32,144 nucleotides of DNA from a virus. The stretch covers positions 1-32,144 of IMG/VR virus record IMGVR_UViG_3300032006_002537; one strand, 5' to 3'. A model generated the notes under the pieces. The model had not been told where the DNA came from and made no database searches. It saw only the letters and a list, made by a program, of their open reading frames with translations. Position 1 is the stretch's first letter. Each line of letters begins with the position of its first letter. The position numbers and the translations under genes were made by a program. Shown one piece after another: positions 5,102 through 30,553 of this stretch.

Positions 5102-6221
5102 AACAACAGATTATAACCGACATGTCATAGGAGATAATGTTGCATTATCTTTTGATGATTTTTATGAAGATTTAAAAGAATTAAGATCCATGTGTCCAGA
5201 TCATACTCAAGAATCTGATTATTGGAAATATAATAACGATTATTTAGATAATTCAGAAGAATCTAAAAAAGTTCAAAAAGAAATAGAAAAACGATTAACT
5301 TTAAAACCTGAAACAAGAGATAGATTATATCCTCGATTGTTACCTGTCGGTCCAGCCGGAACTGTGTCGGATATTTTTCCAGATTATAATACATTAAACA
5401 CACTTAAACCTATCATTAAAGAAGTGTATGATAAAGATGTTACTAGTGTTGAAAGCCAATGTATTAGTTCTACATATTGGGATTATGAACTGCATGTTGA
5501 TGCTCATAATTCACATCATGATAATGTTTTGTCAGCATGTTGGGATGAACTTATTGAAAAAGGCGATGAACATCTTTTAGATAGTATGCTTGTTCCTCCT
5601 GACAAAATAGATGAATGTCATTCTTGGATTAAAGAACGTGAAAATCTTGACCCAAGACTTTATAATAGTGCTACCGAGTTAGACATTGTTTCTGCAGACC
5701 GACCTATATTTCCGGCGGCTTTAAAAAAATCATATTTTTTTTATAATTATTTGCCAACATCTAAAAGATTAAAATTACAAAATCATCCTAATAGGCCCCA
5801 ATGGTTACCTGAAAATAGTTTTGTATGTTTTATATTTTTAGATTTTAATACCGATCCCCAATGGAATGAAATCCCTGAAATTCAATTTTGGAAACATAAA
5901 CCTATGAAGGTTTCTGATCATGAAAGATATAAAATAACCCAAAACGAATTAAAAAAAGAAGAAATAATATCACAATTATTTTATTACGAATCGTGGCATT
6001 ATGGTGAAGTAACAGAGGCAGATGCCTTTAAAACAAATAAACAACTAAGTGATTTGGTATGGGATGAACAGCATACATTAACAGAATATAATTTAATTCA
6101 ATCTATACCTGGCAAAATAAATAAATGTATTTTATTTCCGGGAGAATATTTTCATAAATTTAATTTTCCAAGAGGATACCTAGATTTACCTATGAGAACT
6201 CAAGTAATGATATTAAAATGA
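5091..6221 (+). CDS. 2OG-Fe(II) oxygenase-like protein (376 aa)
   Basis: The protein carries the spaced residues of an iron(II)/2-oxoglutarate oxygenase: H-x-D at His135-Val-Asp137 in DYELHVDAHN, a distal His355 in FPGEYFHKFNF and a following Arg369 in LPMRTQVMIL, which would bind 2-oxoglutarate. The rest is not recognisable and it is longer than the typical 200-250-residue phage oxygenases, with an insert of unknown function (about 150-330). Substrate unknown. It ends in an ATGA overlap with a second oxygenase-like gene, so the two are probably co-translated. The fold assignment rests on the metal-site pattern and the context of many related genes here, not on overall similarity. Confidence 0.6.
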   Translation: MKIKTTDYNRHVIGDNVALSFDDFYEDLKELRSMCPDHTQESDYWKYNNDYLDNSEESKKVQKEIEKRLTLKPETRDRLYPRLLPVGPAGTVSDIFPDYNTLNTLKPIIKEVYDKDVTSVESQCISSTYWDYELHVDAHNSHHDNVLSACWDELIEKGDEHLLDSMLVPPDKIDECHSWIKERENLDPRLYNSATELDIVSADRPIFPAALKKSYFFYNYLPTSKRLKLQNHPNRPQWLPENSFVCFIFLDFNTDPQWNEIPEIQFWKHKPMKVSDHERYKITQNELKKEEIISQLFYYESWHYGEVTEADAFKTNKQLSDLVWDEQHTLTEYNLIQSIPGKINKCILFPGEYFHKFNFPRGYLDLPMRTQVMILK

Positions 6222-6973
6222 AAATACAACCTCGTAATATATTCCATACACATATTTCCGCTTTTAACATATCCGATGAACCGGTGTTTAAATATTTGTT
6301 AGAGTTAAACAACCGAATGCCAGATAAAATAACTGAAGAAGAAAATATAACAAATCAAATAGGTAATACTTCATCATATAGTGCATATCAACGTAATATA
6401 AAAATGAATGATCTTACAACTTGGAATGCATACGAAGATGACGAATGGATTAAAGTTCGAGGTGAAGTTACTAAATTTTTAGAAAACCTCGCAAAATTAT
6501 ATGTAGATATGCATCATAATATGGGTACGGCTAATTGGATTAAAAGTAGAGAATTTGTAGTTACAAATTTATGGACGGTAAGATATAAAGAAGGAGATTA
6601 TCAATCATGGCATACTCATCCCCAATGTGCATTATCGGCAGTTTTATTTTTAGAAGTACCTGATAGTATTAATCCAGACACATTTCCTGATGGTATGTTA
6701 CATTTATTAAGCAATGGAACTTATGATGAGCATACTTTAGAAATAAATCATTCATATTATGTACAACCTGAGCCAGGATTAGTAATATTGTTTCCAGCAT
6801 CTATTGGGCATTTAGCATATCCATTTAAAGGGCCCGGCCAACGAACTGTAATATCATTTAATTATAATGATAAAATGGGCATGGCATCACTTGATAAAAG
6901 ATCAGGAAAATACCTTCTTTCCGGCCCTAATGGCAAGATTTACGAATTAACAGAGTATATTGAAGATAAATAA
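6218..6973 (+). CDS. 2OG-Fe(II) oxygenase-like protein (251 aa)
   Basis: The sequence resembles the putative phage/marine bacterial 2OG-Fe(II) oxygenase family: SWHTHPQCALSAVLFLEVP (His132 and His134), GLVILFPASIGHLAYPF (His198), then GQRTVISFN (Arg209). The first metal motif reads H-x-H rather than the classical H-x-D, as I recall is usual in this family. The protein is probably a cytoplasmic hydroxylase or related oxidase; the substrate is unknown. The start overlaps the previous stop (ATGA). It is the last gene before the 351-base gene-free region with strong RNA folding potential. Confidence 0.75.
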   Translation: MKIQPRNIFHTHISAFNISDEPVFKYLLELNNRMPDKITEEENITNQIGNTSSYSAYQRNIKMNDLTTWNAYEDDEWIKVRGEVTKFLENLAKLYVDMHHNMGTANWIKSREFVVTNLWTVRYKEGDYQSWHTHPQCALSAVLFLEVPDSINPDTFPDGMLHLLSNGTYDEHTLEINHSYYVQPEPGLVILFPASIGHLAYPFKGPGQRTVISFNYNDKMGMASLDKRSGKYLLSGPNGKIYELTEYIEDK

Positions 6974-7247: not shown

Positions 7248-7324
7248 TTCGTTCTTAATTGAGTATATGGTAATAATACCTCTGATAACATGTTTTATTT
7301 TTTTAATATACTAAGAGATACGGT

Positions 7325-7570
7325 ATGCAAGAATTAAGGAAAGGCAAAGCCTACAAGGTAGACAAAGAAGAATATGTCGCTGTATCTTTGAACATACGTG
7401 ATAGAGATCATTTCTATTCTATTGTTCATTACCTAAACAGGACGTTAGGTAGAACTGGTTGGAAAGCCCAAAAAAATACTCTTAAAAAATTTAAGCAAGG
7501 GCGAGTTAATGTTAAACGCCTTTTTTGGCTTTCTGACCCTTCTGTTTCTATAATATTAAAACTTCTATGA
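7325..7570 (+). CDS. Small basic protein, unknown
   Basis: The 81-residue protein is Lys/Arg-rich (for example WKAQKNTLKKFKQGR) with no membrane segment or known motif. ATG 7325 follows AAGAGA about 9 bases upstream, and the gene is coupled to the next one by ATGA. It is the first gene after the structured non-coding region, so any regulation by that RNA would act on it first. Confidence 0.6.
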   Translation: MQELRKGKAYKVDKEEYVAVSLNIRDRDHFYSIVHYLNRTLGRTGWKAQKNTLKKFKQGRVNVKRLFWLSDPSVSIILKLL

Positions 7571-28829: not shown

Positions 28830-30056
28830 ATGGAAAATATAAATGTTAAAACCTTTCCTACCGGCAGAAGTCCAAAAGGGAAGTTTTATTTCGGTAATAA
28901 TACAATTAAATTATGTAGAGATCGTCCTAATGATTGTCAAATAGGCAACGTAGCGGATTTTAATATATTGTATGAAAGAATGATTCGAGAGCAATATCCG
29001 TACAGAGGTATTTTTCGTACTTGTGGTATTGATTTTGGAGTAGCCACTACAAGTGCAAATCATCATAAGTTTGTCGGAAATATGTTTAGGCAAACTACAT
29101 TACAAGATAATCATAAACTAACAGGCGATTGGAAGATATACCATAACATGGAACTAGAAAATGATCCATGGGTGTATATTCATTTAGATAGAAAAGAAGT
29201 ATTAATTACAGGCACAAGTTTCTTTGGTGAAATTAAAAAATGTGTATTTACTATTATTGGTTATTCAATGCCATTAGAAGGGCGGTTACCAATGCATTGT
29301 AGTGCCTTTGAATATAACGATAATACCGCATTAATGTTCGGATTAAGTGGTACCGGTAAGACTACATTAAGTGCTGATCCAGAATATCAATTAATTGGTG
29401 ATGATGAAATTGTATGGGACGAAGCAGGACTTACATATGTAGAAACTGGTTGCTATGCTAAAACAGAAGGACTTAATAGAGAAACACAACCAACAATTTT
29501 TCAAGCAATGGATACTGCGAGAGAGCAAGGACTGTTAATAGAAGAAAATGTAACAGAGCCAAATGCAAGAAGTAGTTACCCAATTGATTGTGTTCCAAAT
29601 GCAATTACAAATAGAGCATTGTTTGATCATCCTAAAGATGTATTCTTTTTAGCATTAGATGCTACAGGTACATTACCAGCAGTATCAAAGATAGAAGGAA
29701 TGGGTATTAGAAAACTGTTTGAAACTGGTTATACAAGTAAAATGCCTGGCACTGAAGATGGTGTAAATGAAATACAAAAAGTATATTCACCTTGCTATGG
29801 CAGTCCATTTATGCCACTACCTGTAAAAACATATAGCGATATGCTAATGGATAGAGTTACTGATGAAGAAAGTAATGTATTTCTAGTTAATACAGGAATG
29901 GATAAAACAGGTAATAGATTTCCATTAGATAAAACTCGTGCATATATTAAGCAGGCATTAAAAGGCGATTATACTACAAAAGATATTAAATGGACAAATC
30001 CAATACAACCTTGTAAAGTCGGAACTATAGAGTTACATGAATTAATAGGCGTGTAG
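28830..30056 (+). CDS. pckA: ATP-type phosphoenolpyruvate carboxykinase, trimmed core
   Basis: The 408-residue protein matches the PEPCK core, which interconverts oxaloacetate and PEP using ATP. Motifs in order: TGRSPKGKF (Arg13 = E. coli Arg65), FFGEIKKC (Lys136-137 = Lys212-213), LPMHCSA (His156 = His232), the P-loop GLSGTGKTT (171-179), IGDDE (189-193) and NARSSYPI (Arg247 = Arg333). Differences: the conserved Tyr before G-G-E-M-K-K is Phe131, and H-G-W after the DDE is I-V-W. Compared with about 530-540 residues in bacteria, it lacks the N-terminal stretch before TGRSPK and roughly the last 100 residues. ATG 28830 (AAGG upstream) is used, since an upstream start would read through tRNA-His. 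It overlaps tRNA-Ile by 10 bases. Confidence 0.87.
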   Translation: MENINVKTFPTGRSPKGKFYFGNNTIKLCRDRPNDCQIGNVADFNILYERMIREQYPYRGIFRTCGIDFGVATTSANHHKFVGNMFRQTTLQDNHKLTGDWKIYHNMELENDPWVYIHLDRKEVLITGTSFFGEIKKCVFTIIGYSMPLEGRLPMHCSAFEYNDNTALMFGLSGTGKTTLSADPEYQLIGDDEIVWDEAGLTYVETGCYAKTEGLNRETQPTIFQAMDTAREQGLLIEENVTEPNARSSYPIDCVPNAITNRALFDHPKDVFFLALDATGTLPAVSKIEGMGIRKLFETGYTSKMPGTEDGVNEIQKVYSPCYGSPFMPLPVKTYSDMLMDRVTDEESNVFLVNTGMDKTGNRFPLDKTRAYIKQALKGDYTTKDIKWTNPIQPCKVGTIELHELIGV

Positions 30057-30123
30057 TTCAGCTGGTTAGAACGCCACTCTGATACGGTGGAAGTCGTTGG
30101 TTCGAGTCCAACCATGCCTACCA
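30047..30123 (+). tRNA. tRNA-Ile(GAU), CCA encoded
   Basis: Acceptor AGGCGTG/CATGCCT, D arm GTTC/GAAC, anticodon arm CCACT/GGTGG with loop CTGATAC (anticodon GAT), T arm GTTGG/CCAAC with TTCGAGT, discriminator A, CCA encoded. The TAG stop of the PEPCK gene is formed by its bases 8-10. Confidence 0.96.
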
Positions 30124-30153
30124 AATAAATAACATTGTAATTACGGAGTGTCC

Positions 30154-30378
30154 ATGTCAACTTACAGTATTCGTTATTGTGTTATATGAAACTATTTGCC
30201 ACACGCCACTAGGTTAGTGGAAGAGATATCATTTATGGCAAATTATACTGCACAAGATTTTCATTTAGTAGAAGGTAACAGCGGGGAGTTTACTATCTGG
30301 AGAGACAATGAACAAATTTATAGTAAAGGTGCTTTGGATGATTTTCCTAATGGCGACGATATTGTTCGGTTGCTCTGA
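30154..30378 (+). CDS. selW: SelW-like (Rdx family) putative selenoprotein with in-frame UGA
   Basis: Reading from ATG 30154 (GGAG five bases upstream) gives 74 residues if TGA 30187-30189 is read as selenocysteine. The start is MSTYSIRYC (Cys9), then V-I-U12, then NYLPHATRLVEEISFM, LVEGNSGEFTIWRDNEQIY and KGALDDFPNGDD before the TGA stop at 30376-30378. The pattern I-x-Y-C-x-x-U...P-x-A...L, G-x-F-x-I..D...I-Y-S-K and F-P is that of SelW/Rdx redox proteins, with UGA exactly at the second redox position. A 6-bp hairpin with a GGT loop lies 22 bases past the UGA. Other genes here use TGA as a normal stop, so a Trp reassignment is not favoured. If UGA is not decoded, only an 11-residue peptide would be made. 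Confidence 0.75.
30206..30220 (+). promoter_or_regulatory. SECIS-like hairpin downstream of the in-frame UGA
   Basis: CCACTA (30206-30211) and TAGTGG (30215-30220) form a perfect 6-bp stem with the loop GGT. The UGA-to-loop distance of 22 bases and G at the first loop positions fit the bacterial SECIS pattern, in which SelB binds a short apical hairpin in the coding region. The E. coli fdhF hairpin also has a GGU-containing loop. Confidence 0.65.
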
Positions 30379-30553
30379 ACCCCCAATGTATATAAAAACG
30401 GATAGTCATACATATATATGTAAAATGGGTTGTCAAAATTATCCTTCTTGGCTGAAGAATCCAAAGGTAAAAACAAAGTTATGGCGCCCAAAAAAATATC
30501 AGGCACCACATTGTTTCGATCAATGTAGACACAAGCCTATAAAAAAATGGTGA
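30308..30553 (+). CDS. Putative lipoprotein overlapping the SelW-like gene
   Basis: The 81-residue protein has a signal-like N-terminus (VKVLWMIFLMATILF) and a lipobox L-F-G-C at Cys22, followed by a basic mature part with several cysteines (YICKMGCQNY, HCFDQCRH). It overlaps the SelW-like frame by 71 bases in another frame, which is large for this window. It is probably exported to the periplasm; it could be a lysis or envelope protein, but nothing proves this. Confidence 0.55.
   Translation: MNKFIVKVLWMIFLMATILFGCSEPPMYIKTDSHTYICKMGCQNYPSWLKNPKVKTKLWRPKKYQAPHCFDQCRHKPIKKW

Follow-up and report, generated by a model that had tools for sequence, protein, structure and literature searches.

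We have identified what appears to be a genuine phage gene for a SelW-like selenoprotein, one among many of its kind, in a 32 kb piece of a virus record from IMG/VR (the window, meaning the whole 32,144-nucleotide stretch analyzed here). The reading frame is interrupted by a UGA at codon 12, and on the sequence evidence presented below we put the probability that this codon is decoded as selenocysteine (Sec) at roughly 94%. The window would then be part of a T4-related bacteriophage that encodes a selenoprotein of the SelW/Rdx family with a thioredoxin fold. In a Sec-using host, the SelB and Sec-tRNA of that host would recognise a hairpin 22 nt downstream of the UGA, host ribosomes would then insert Sec at the UGA, and the finished 74-residue protein would bear a Cys-x-x-Sec redox centre. 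The features concerned are listed in Table 1.

Table 1. Features of the selW locus in the window
Feature	Position	Strand	Basis and remarks
Phosphoenolpyruvate carboxykinase (PEPCK), phage gene	28830..30056	+	ORF list; upstream of selW
tRNA-Ile(GAT)	30047..30123	+	ARAGORN; directly 5' of selW; locus anchor common to L003 and the selW-less L005
Ribosome-binding site CGGAG	30144..30148	+	5 nt before the ATG; read from the sequence
selW-like selenoprotein gene, 74 aa, Rdx/SelW (predicted)	30154..30378	+	Pfam Rdx; terminal TGA 30376-30378
In-frame UGA, codon 12, putative selenocysteine codon of C-V-I-U	30187..30189	+	Position shared with bacterial homologues and with 55 distinct phage proteins
Possible outer 8-bp stem AUUUGCCA/UGGCAAAU around the SECIS hairpin	30194..30243	+	Minimum-free-energy fold; by eye absent in L003
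Bacterial-type SECIS hairpin CCACTA-GGT-TAGTGG (predicted)	30206..30220	+	Position and covariation conserved in related phages
Small predicted lipoprotein ORF	30308..30553	+	ORF list; overlaps the 3'-terminal 71 nt of selW, in a different frame

With TGA read as Sec (U), the selW frame translates as MSTYSIRYCVIUNYLPHATRLVEEISFMANYTAQDFHLVEGNSGEFTIWRDNEQIYSKGALDDFPNGDDIVRLL, in which the CxxC/CxxU motif, C9-V-I-U12, follows the first strand. The original prediction held that a frame behind a good ribosome-binding site would give a complete SelW/Rdx protein if the TGA is a residue, with the UGA at the second redox position; the translation, the ribosome-binding site and the Pfam match, which spans the UGA, all agree with this. 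The read-through frame matches Pfam Rdx (PF10262) with an E value of 1.2e-11 (45.1 bits, against a curated cut-off of 22.6), and the segment 3' of the UGA alone scores 26 bits. The narrower NCBI models give scores below their cut-offs for the window protein (64.9 versus 88 for NF041051 SelTWH_Campy and 28 versus 34.2 for TIGR02174 CXXU_selWTH), and the protein is not assigned to either. The NCBI SelW models match every one of the 28 phage members with E <= 0.001, the best at 6.2e-30, and I6, Y8, C9, position 12, N13, Y14, P16 and A18 are invariant in 28 phage sequences. An AlphaFold model of the window protein (pLDDT 89) has its best PDB matches among bacterial SelW-related structures (2fa8, 2oka, 3dex and 2obk; TMq 0.79-0.84), and the predicted fold is the thioredoxin-like fold of SelW. 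The window protein has no match in PHROGs, and a search of the viral structure library with its model revealed nothing related to Rdx, which is what one would expect of annotation that ends at the UGA.

Downstream of the UGA lies a hairpin that can be compared with a published model of bacterial SECIS elements (PMC13188914). The model specifies an apical loop of 3-9 nt on an upper stem of 4-16 bp, a G within the first two loop positions that is usually followed by G or U, a distance of 16-37 nt from the UGA to the apical loop, and a minimum free energy of -7.5 kcal/mol or lower. The window hairpin conforms in all four respects, with its 3-nt loop and 6-bp stem, its GGU, its 22 nt spacing and its energy (-13.2 kcal/mol over 59 nt, z -2.25; -9.2 kcal/mol over 50 nt). 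The 6-bp stem and GGT loop had been described correctly from the first; the 22 nt given as the distance to the hairpin is that to the start of the loop (30212), and the stem itself starts at 16 nt (30206). The two strands of the window together contain 982 TGA triplets, and the selW UGA alone has a 6-bp stem behind it whose G[G/U] loop is placed at +22. When codons were shuffled synonymously, the stability of the hairpin was equalled at that position in 1 of 1000 shuffles (p = 0.001), and in 14 of 1000 when any SECIS-like placement was accepted.

The hairpin is kept, with compensatory changes, in related phages, as was proposed for a real element. In 24 chosen phage sequences 93.8% of stem cells are paired (61.3% after shuffling), with 49 double changes (17.5 after shuffling) and a covariation of 0.784 (0.171 after shuffling); the pairing signal is lost when the stem partner is slid by 1-3 columns. 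Over all 48 distinct phage 45-mers, pairing is 94.1% versus 65.1% shuffled, and the loop has the form G[G/U][U/C] in 48 of 48. Hairpins of exactly this form in the examined loci occur at selW UGAs in 45 of 45 cases, and none was found elsewhere in the examined phage DNA. A minority of group-A members have a weaker hairpin at the SECIS position, and one member, L033, has none there by a simple test.

The PEPCK gene of the window served to locate related phage loci, some with selW and others lacking it. In L003, a contig from an independent sister phage, PEPCK is likewise followed by tRNAs, the last of which is tRNA-Ile, and then by selW. Codon 12 of this selW is TGA and its stop codon is TAG, and the two SelW proteins are 70% identical. 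Between window and L003, dN/dS is 0.11 before the UGA and 0.15 after it, with the overlap with the next gene excluded, and 1.5-1.7 in the other two frames; judged by these ratios, purifying selection acts before and after the UGA alike. The hairpin stem shows a compensatory change, one C:G pair of the window corresponding to T:A in L003. L005, a further related phage, shares PEPCK and tRNA-Ile but continues with other genes and lacks selW there (7293-7447). This empty site marks selW as a removable cassette.

Viral contigs were scanned with the pattern YCxxU-N-[aromatic]..P..A, which sees only part of the family. It matched 103 stretches, mostly SelW read through the UGA, and yielded 55 distinct UGA-SelW proteins on about 75 viral contigs. 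The same in-frame TGA on so many contigs excludes a read error, one of the outcomes that had been named as fatal to the original prediction. When a Cys codon was put in place of the UGA, the matched pattern hit 8 stretches in viral contigs, none of them SelW, and the classical Cys-SelW pattern gave none; both patterns cover part of the family. A wide-alignment search of the viral contigs gave only unconfirmed stretches because its search pattern requires Cys. Among 50,697 records of sequenced phages no match to the SelW gene was found.

The T4-type capsid gene Gp23 is present on six UGA-SelW contigs (216, 134, 132, 131, 84 and 56 kb; E 1e-76 to 1e-145), and also in G002, a relative of the window. 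By capsid, the nearest isolated relatives of one group are HTVC008M and Methylophilales phages, those of another group are Microcystis and Flavobacterium phages, and those of the window's relative are the jumbo phages Phosso, 2.275.O and GAP32. The PEPCK locus of the window itself matches a phage contig, and the Gp23 encoded on that contig shares 73% identity with the Phosso protein. In a tree the phage genes fall into three clusters, with the window pair beside a bacterial gene (L119, see below); the alignment has few columns, and the three clusters are at best a tentative guide to the number of transfers into phages. We consider it about an even chance that several lineages of ocean T4-like phages separately acquired SelW and retained only the Sec form.

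UGA-SelW with the same SECIS also occurs in bacteria. A Polyangia MAG (L119) encodes YCVRUNYLPHATRLV with UGA and has the hairpin CCACCA-GGT-TGGTGG; at the equivalent of position 12 a Verrucomicrobiales MAG (L121) has UGA and a Myxococcaceae MAG (L120) has Cys. The homologues therefore include predicted Sec/Cys pairs at the UGA, and the expectation that Rdx sequence continues beyond the codon, with UGA or Cys at position 12, is borne out. All three of these MAGs have a tRNA-Sec over the cut-off. Matches occur in 59 of 141 genomes of the Myxococcota, the phylum of the Polyangia MAG; most have one internal TGA, and stop-free forms are also present. The selB gene is over the cut-off in 14 of 16 Myxococcota genomes with UGA-SelW that were checked. 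The closest bacterial SelW genes are those of Myxococcota, which connect to the phage genes via a long branch; in view of this branch we did not adopt Myxococcota as the phage host.

The 28 UGA-SelW phage records that were searched, the window included, contain no selB (many of them are fragments, and four exceed 130 kb) and no tRNA-Sec over the cut-off. Their best tRNA-Sec-like matches are Arg, Gly and Tyr tRNAs, and Sec machinery encoded by the phages themselves was rejected. Decoding is thus most likely carried out by host machinery, in line with the earlier suggestion of a host with SelA/B/C/D. The likeness to the bacterial SelW-like selenoproteins of Myxococcota and Verrucomicrobiota MAGs extends to the place of CxxU, the N-Y-x-P-x-A motif and the loop at 22 nt; the bacterial genes, however, are cellular and have their own tRNA-Sec and selB, whereas the phage gene depends on its host.

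Other readings of the UGA have to be weighed against Sec. Phages with recoded stop codons exist, and the window has six tRNA genes, so that an ordinary amino acid (Cys or Trp) might be inserted at the UGA by reassignment or by a suppressor tRNA, with no selenium involved. We judge this very improbable. Among 51 window genes that were taken as real, the stop is TGA in 25, TAA in 19 and TAG in 7, with 17 of these TGAs overlapping the next start; UGA is the commonest stop, and the code is therefore not reassigned, as the original prediction had supposed. The anticodons of the six tRNAs are those for Thr, Pro, Asp, Asn, His and Ile only. Moreover, reassignment does not predict a hairpin solely at the selW UGA, nor does it sit well with bacterial homologues that have the same hairpin in genomes with selB and tRNA-Sec. 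Even less probable, in our estimation, is that the UGA simply terminates translation and is followed by a decayed gene or by a shorter protein started at TTG 30196. A 60-aa ORF does begin at this TTG and gives a weak Rdx match, but the TTG has no apparent ribosome-binding site and the product would be without the first strand and the redox motif. Termination is also at odds with the low dN/dS on either side of the UGA, with the covariation of the hairpin across diverse phages, and with the presence of TGA at exactly this place in 55 distinct proteins.

It might also be asked whether selW is bacterial DNA misfiled as viral, since UGA-SelW is a bacterial family and many neighbours in the window are host-like (clpX, infC, rpsU, iscU). 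To this we give almost no credence, given the Gp23 genes on six other UGA-SelW contigs of 56-216 kb, the phage-type genes of the window (exonuclease, DNA polymerase and MazG) beside its six tRNA genes, and the match of its PEPCK locus to the contig with the Phosso-like Gp23. On another contig, L067, selW has a RecA-family recombinase gene nearby, and Gp23 is on the same contig.

The Cys-x-x-Sec motif in a SelW fold points to a thiol-selenol oxidoreductase. The phage SelW would probably be a small enzyme of this kind that maintains thiols, peroxide levels or iron-sulfur assembly during infection; we regard this redox or iron-sulfur role as tentative, at slightly less than even odds. In the 216 kb contig L011 (737-3392), genes for IscS-like, IscU-like (NifU_N plus BFD) and FeS_assembly_P proteins are followed directly by selW, and IscU/IscA relatives occur in the examined DNA of about 20 of the 75 selW loci, including the window. 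Such gene neighbours suggest that SelW helps iron-sulfur assembly or guards against oxidation while the phage infects its host. The iron-sulfur link is weak, since these genes are abundant in these phages anyway.

SelW-like proteins are the most abundant marine selenoproteins (PMC2398784, PMC9402790), and the GOS survey counted 427 Sec forms versus 56 Cys forms (PMC2398784). The ocean-metagenome SelW-like genes (GOS, Sargasso Sea) share family and CxxU with the phage genes; the studies describing them did not assign them to phages (PMC2398784, PMC1088965, PMC9402790). Overlap between the two sets is likely, and part of the ocean SelW-like pool now looks viral. The original prediction called phage selenoproteins barely documented, which was cautious wording. 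According to a 2019 review, viral selenoproteins have been proven in only two cases, both of them glutathione peroxidases of poxviruses (PMC6769590); like the phage SelW they are encoded by viruses and rely on host Sec machinery, but they belong to animal viruses and another protein family and use eukaryotic SECIS elements. Use of Sec by phages has also been inferred from tRNA-Sec genes predicted in huge phages from wastewater (PMC10747093). Those phages have tRNA-Sec predictions and no selenoprotein gene, the reverse of the UGA-SelW phages described here. Two reviews of prokaryotic selenoproteins are silent on phages, and targeted literature searches, which reached a minority of subscription journals and no preprints, turned up no phage selenoprotein; any claim to priority is tentative.

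As dozens of related ocean phages have the same kind of gene, phages would seem to be an overlooked home of selenoproteins, and standard annotation hides their UGA-SelW genes. If Sec decoding is correct, selenium becomes a factor in phage infection that can be tested, and the presence of UGA-SelW in a phage is a clue to a Sec-using host. If SelW was indeed taken up separately and is kept in the Sec form only, its full expression would be limited to Sec-using hosts, and phages would form a major reservoir of the selenoprotein that is commonest in the ocean and would exploit selenium during infection.

A T4 late promoter 5' of selW was considered, as AATAAATA, one base off the consensus, is present in both the window and L003. 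It was dropped: upstream of selW in 55 cases there are no exact matches, and the 7 near matches are at background. The window (1684-32144) contains unusually many host-like genes, several of them identified by eye only. These are clpX, infC, rpsU, hsp20, clpS, iscU, two iscA-like genes, queD, three tryptophan-halogenase-like genes and genes for redoxin, carbamoyltransferase, glutaredoxin and PEPCK, as well as speD and purC. Relatives of the window PEPCK are found on five viral contigs at 51-90% identity, and matches in the phage collection are only about 35% identical; the 3' end of the gene and tRNA-Ile overlap by 10 nt. The overlap of the lipoprotein ORF with the 3' end of selW is seen in L003 as well (6155-6370), the lipoboxes being ILFG-C and ILPA-C, and translational coupling of the two genes is possible.
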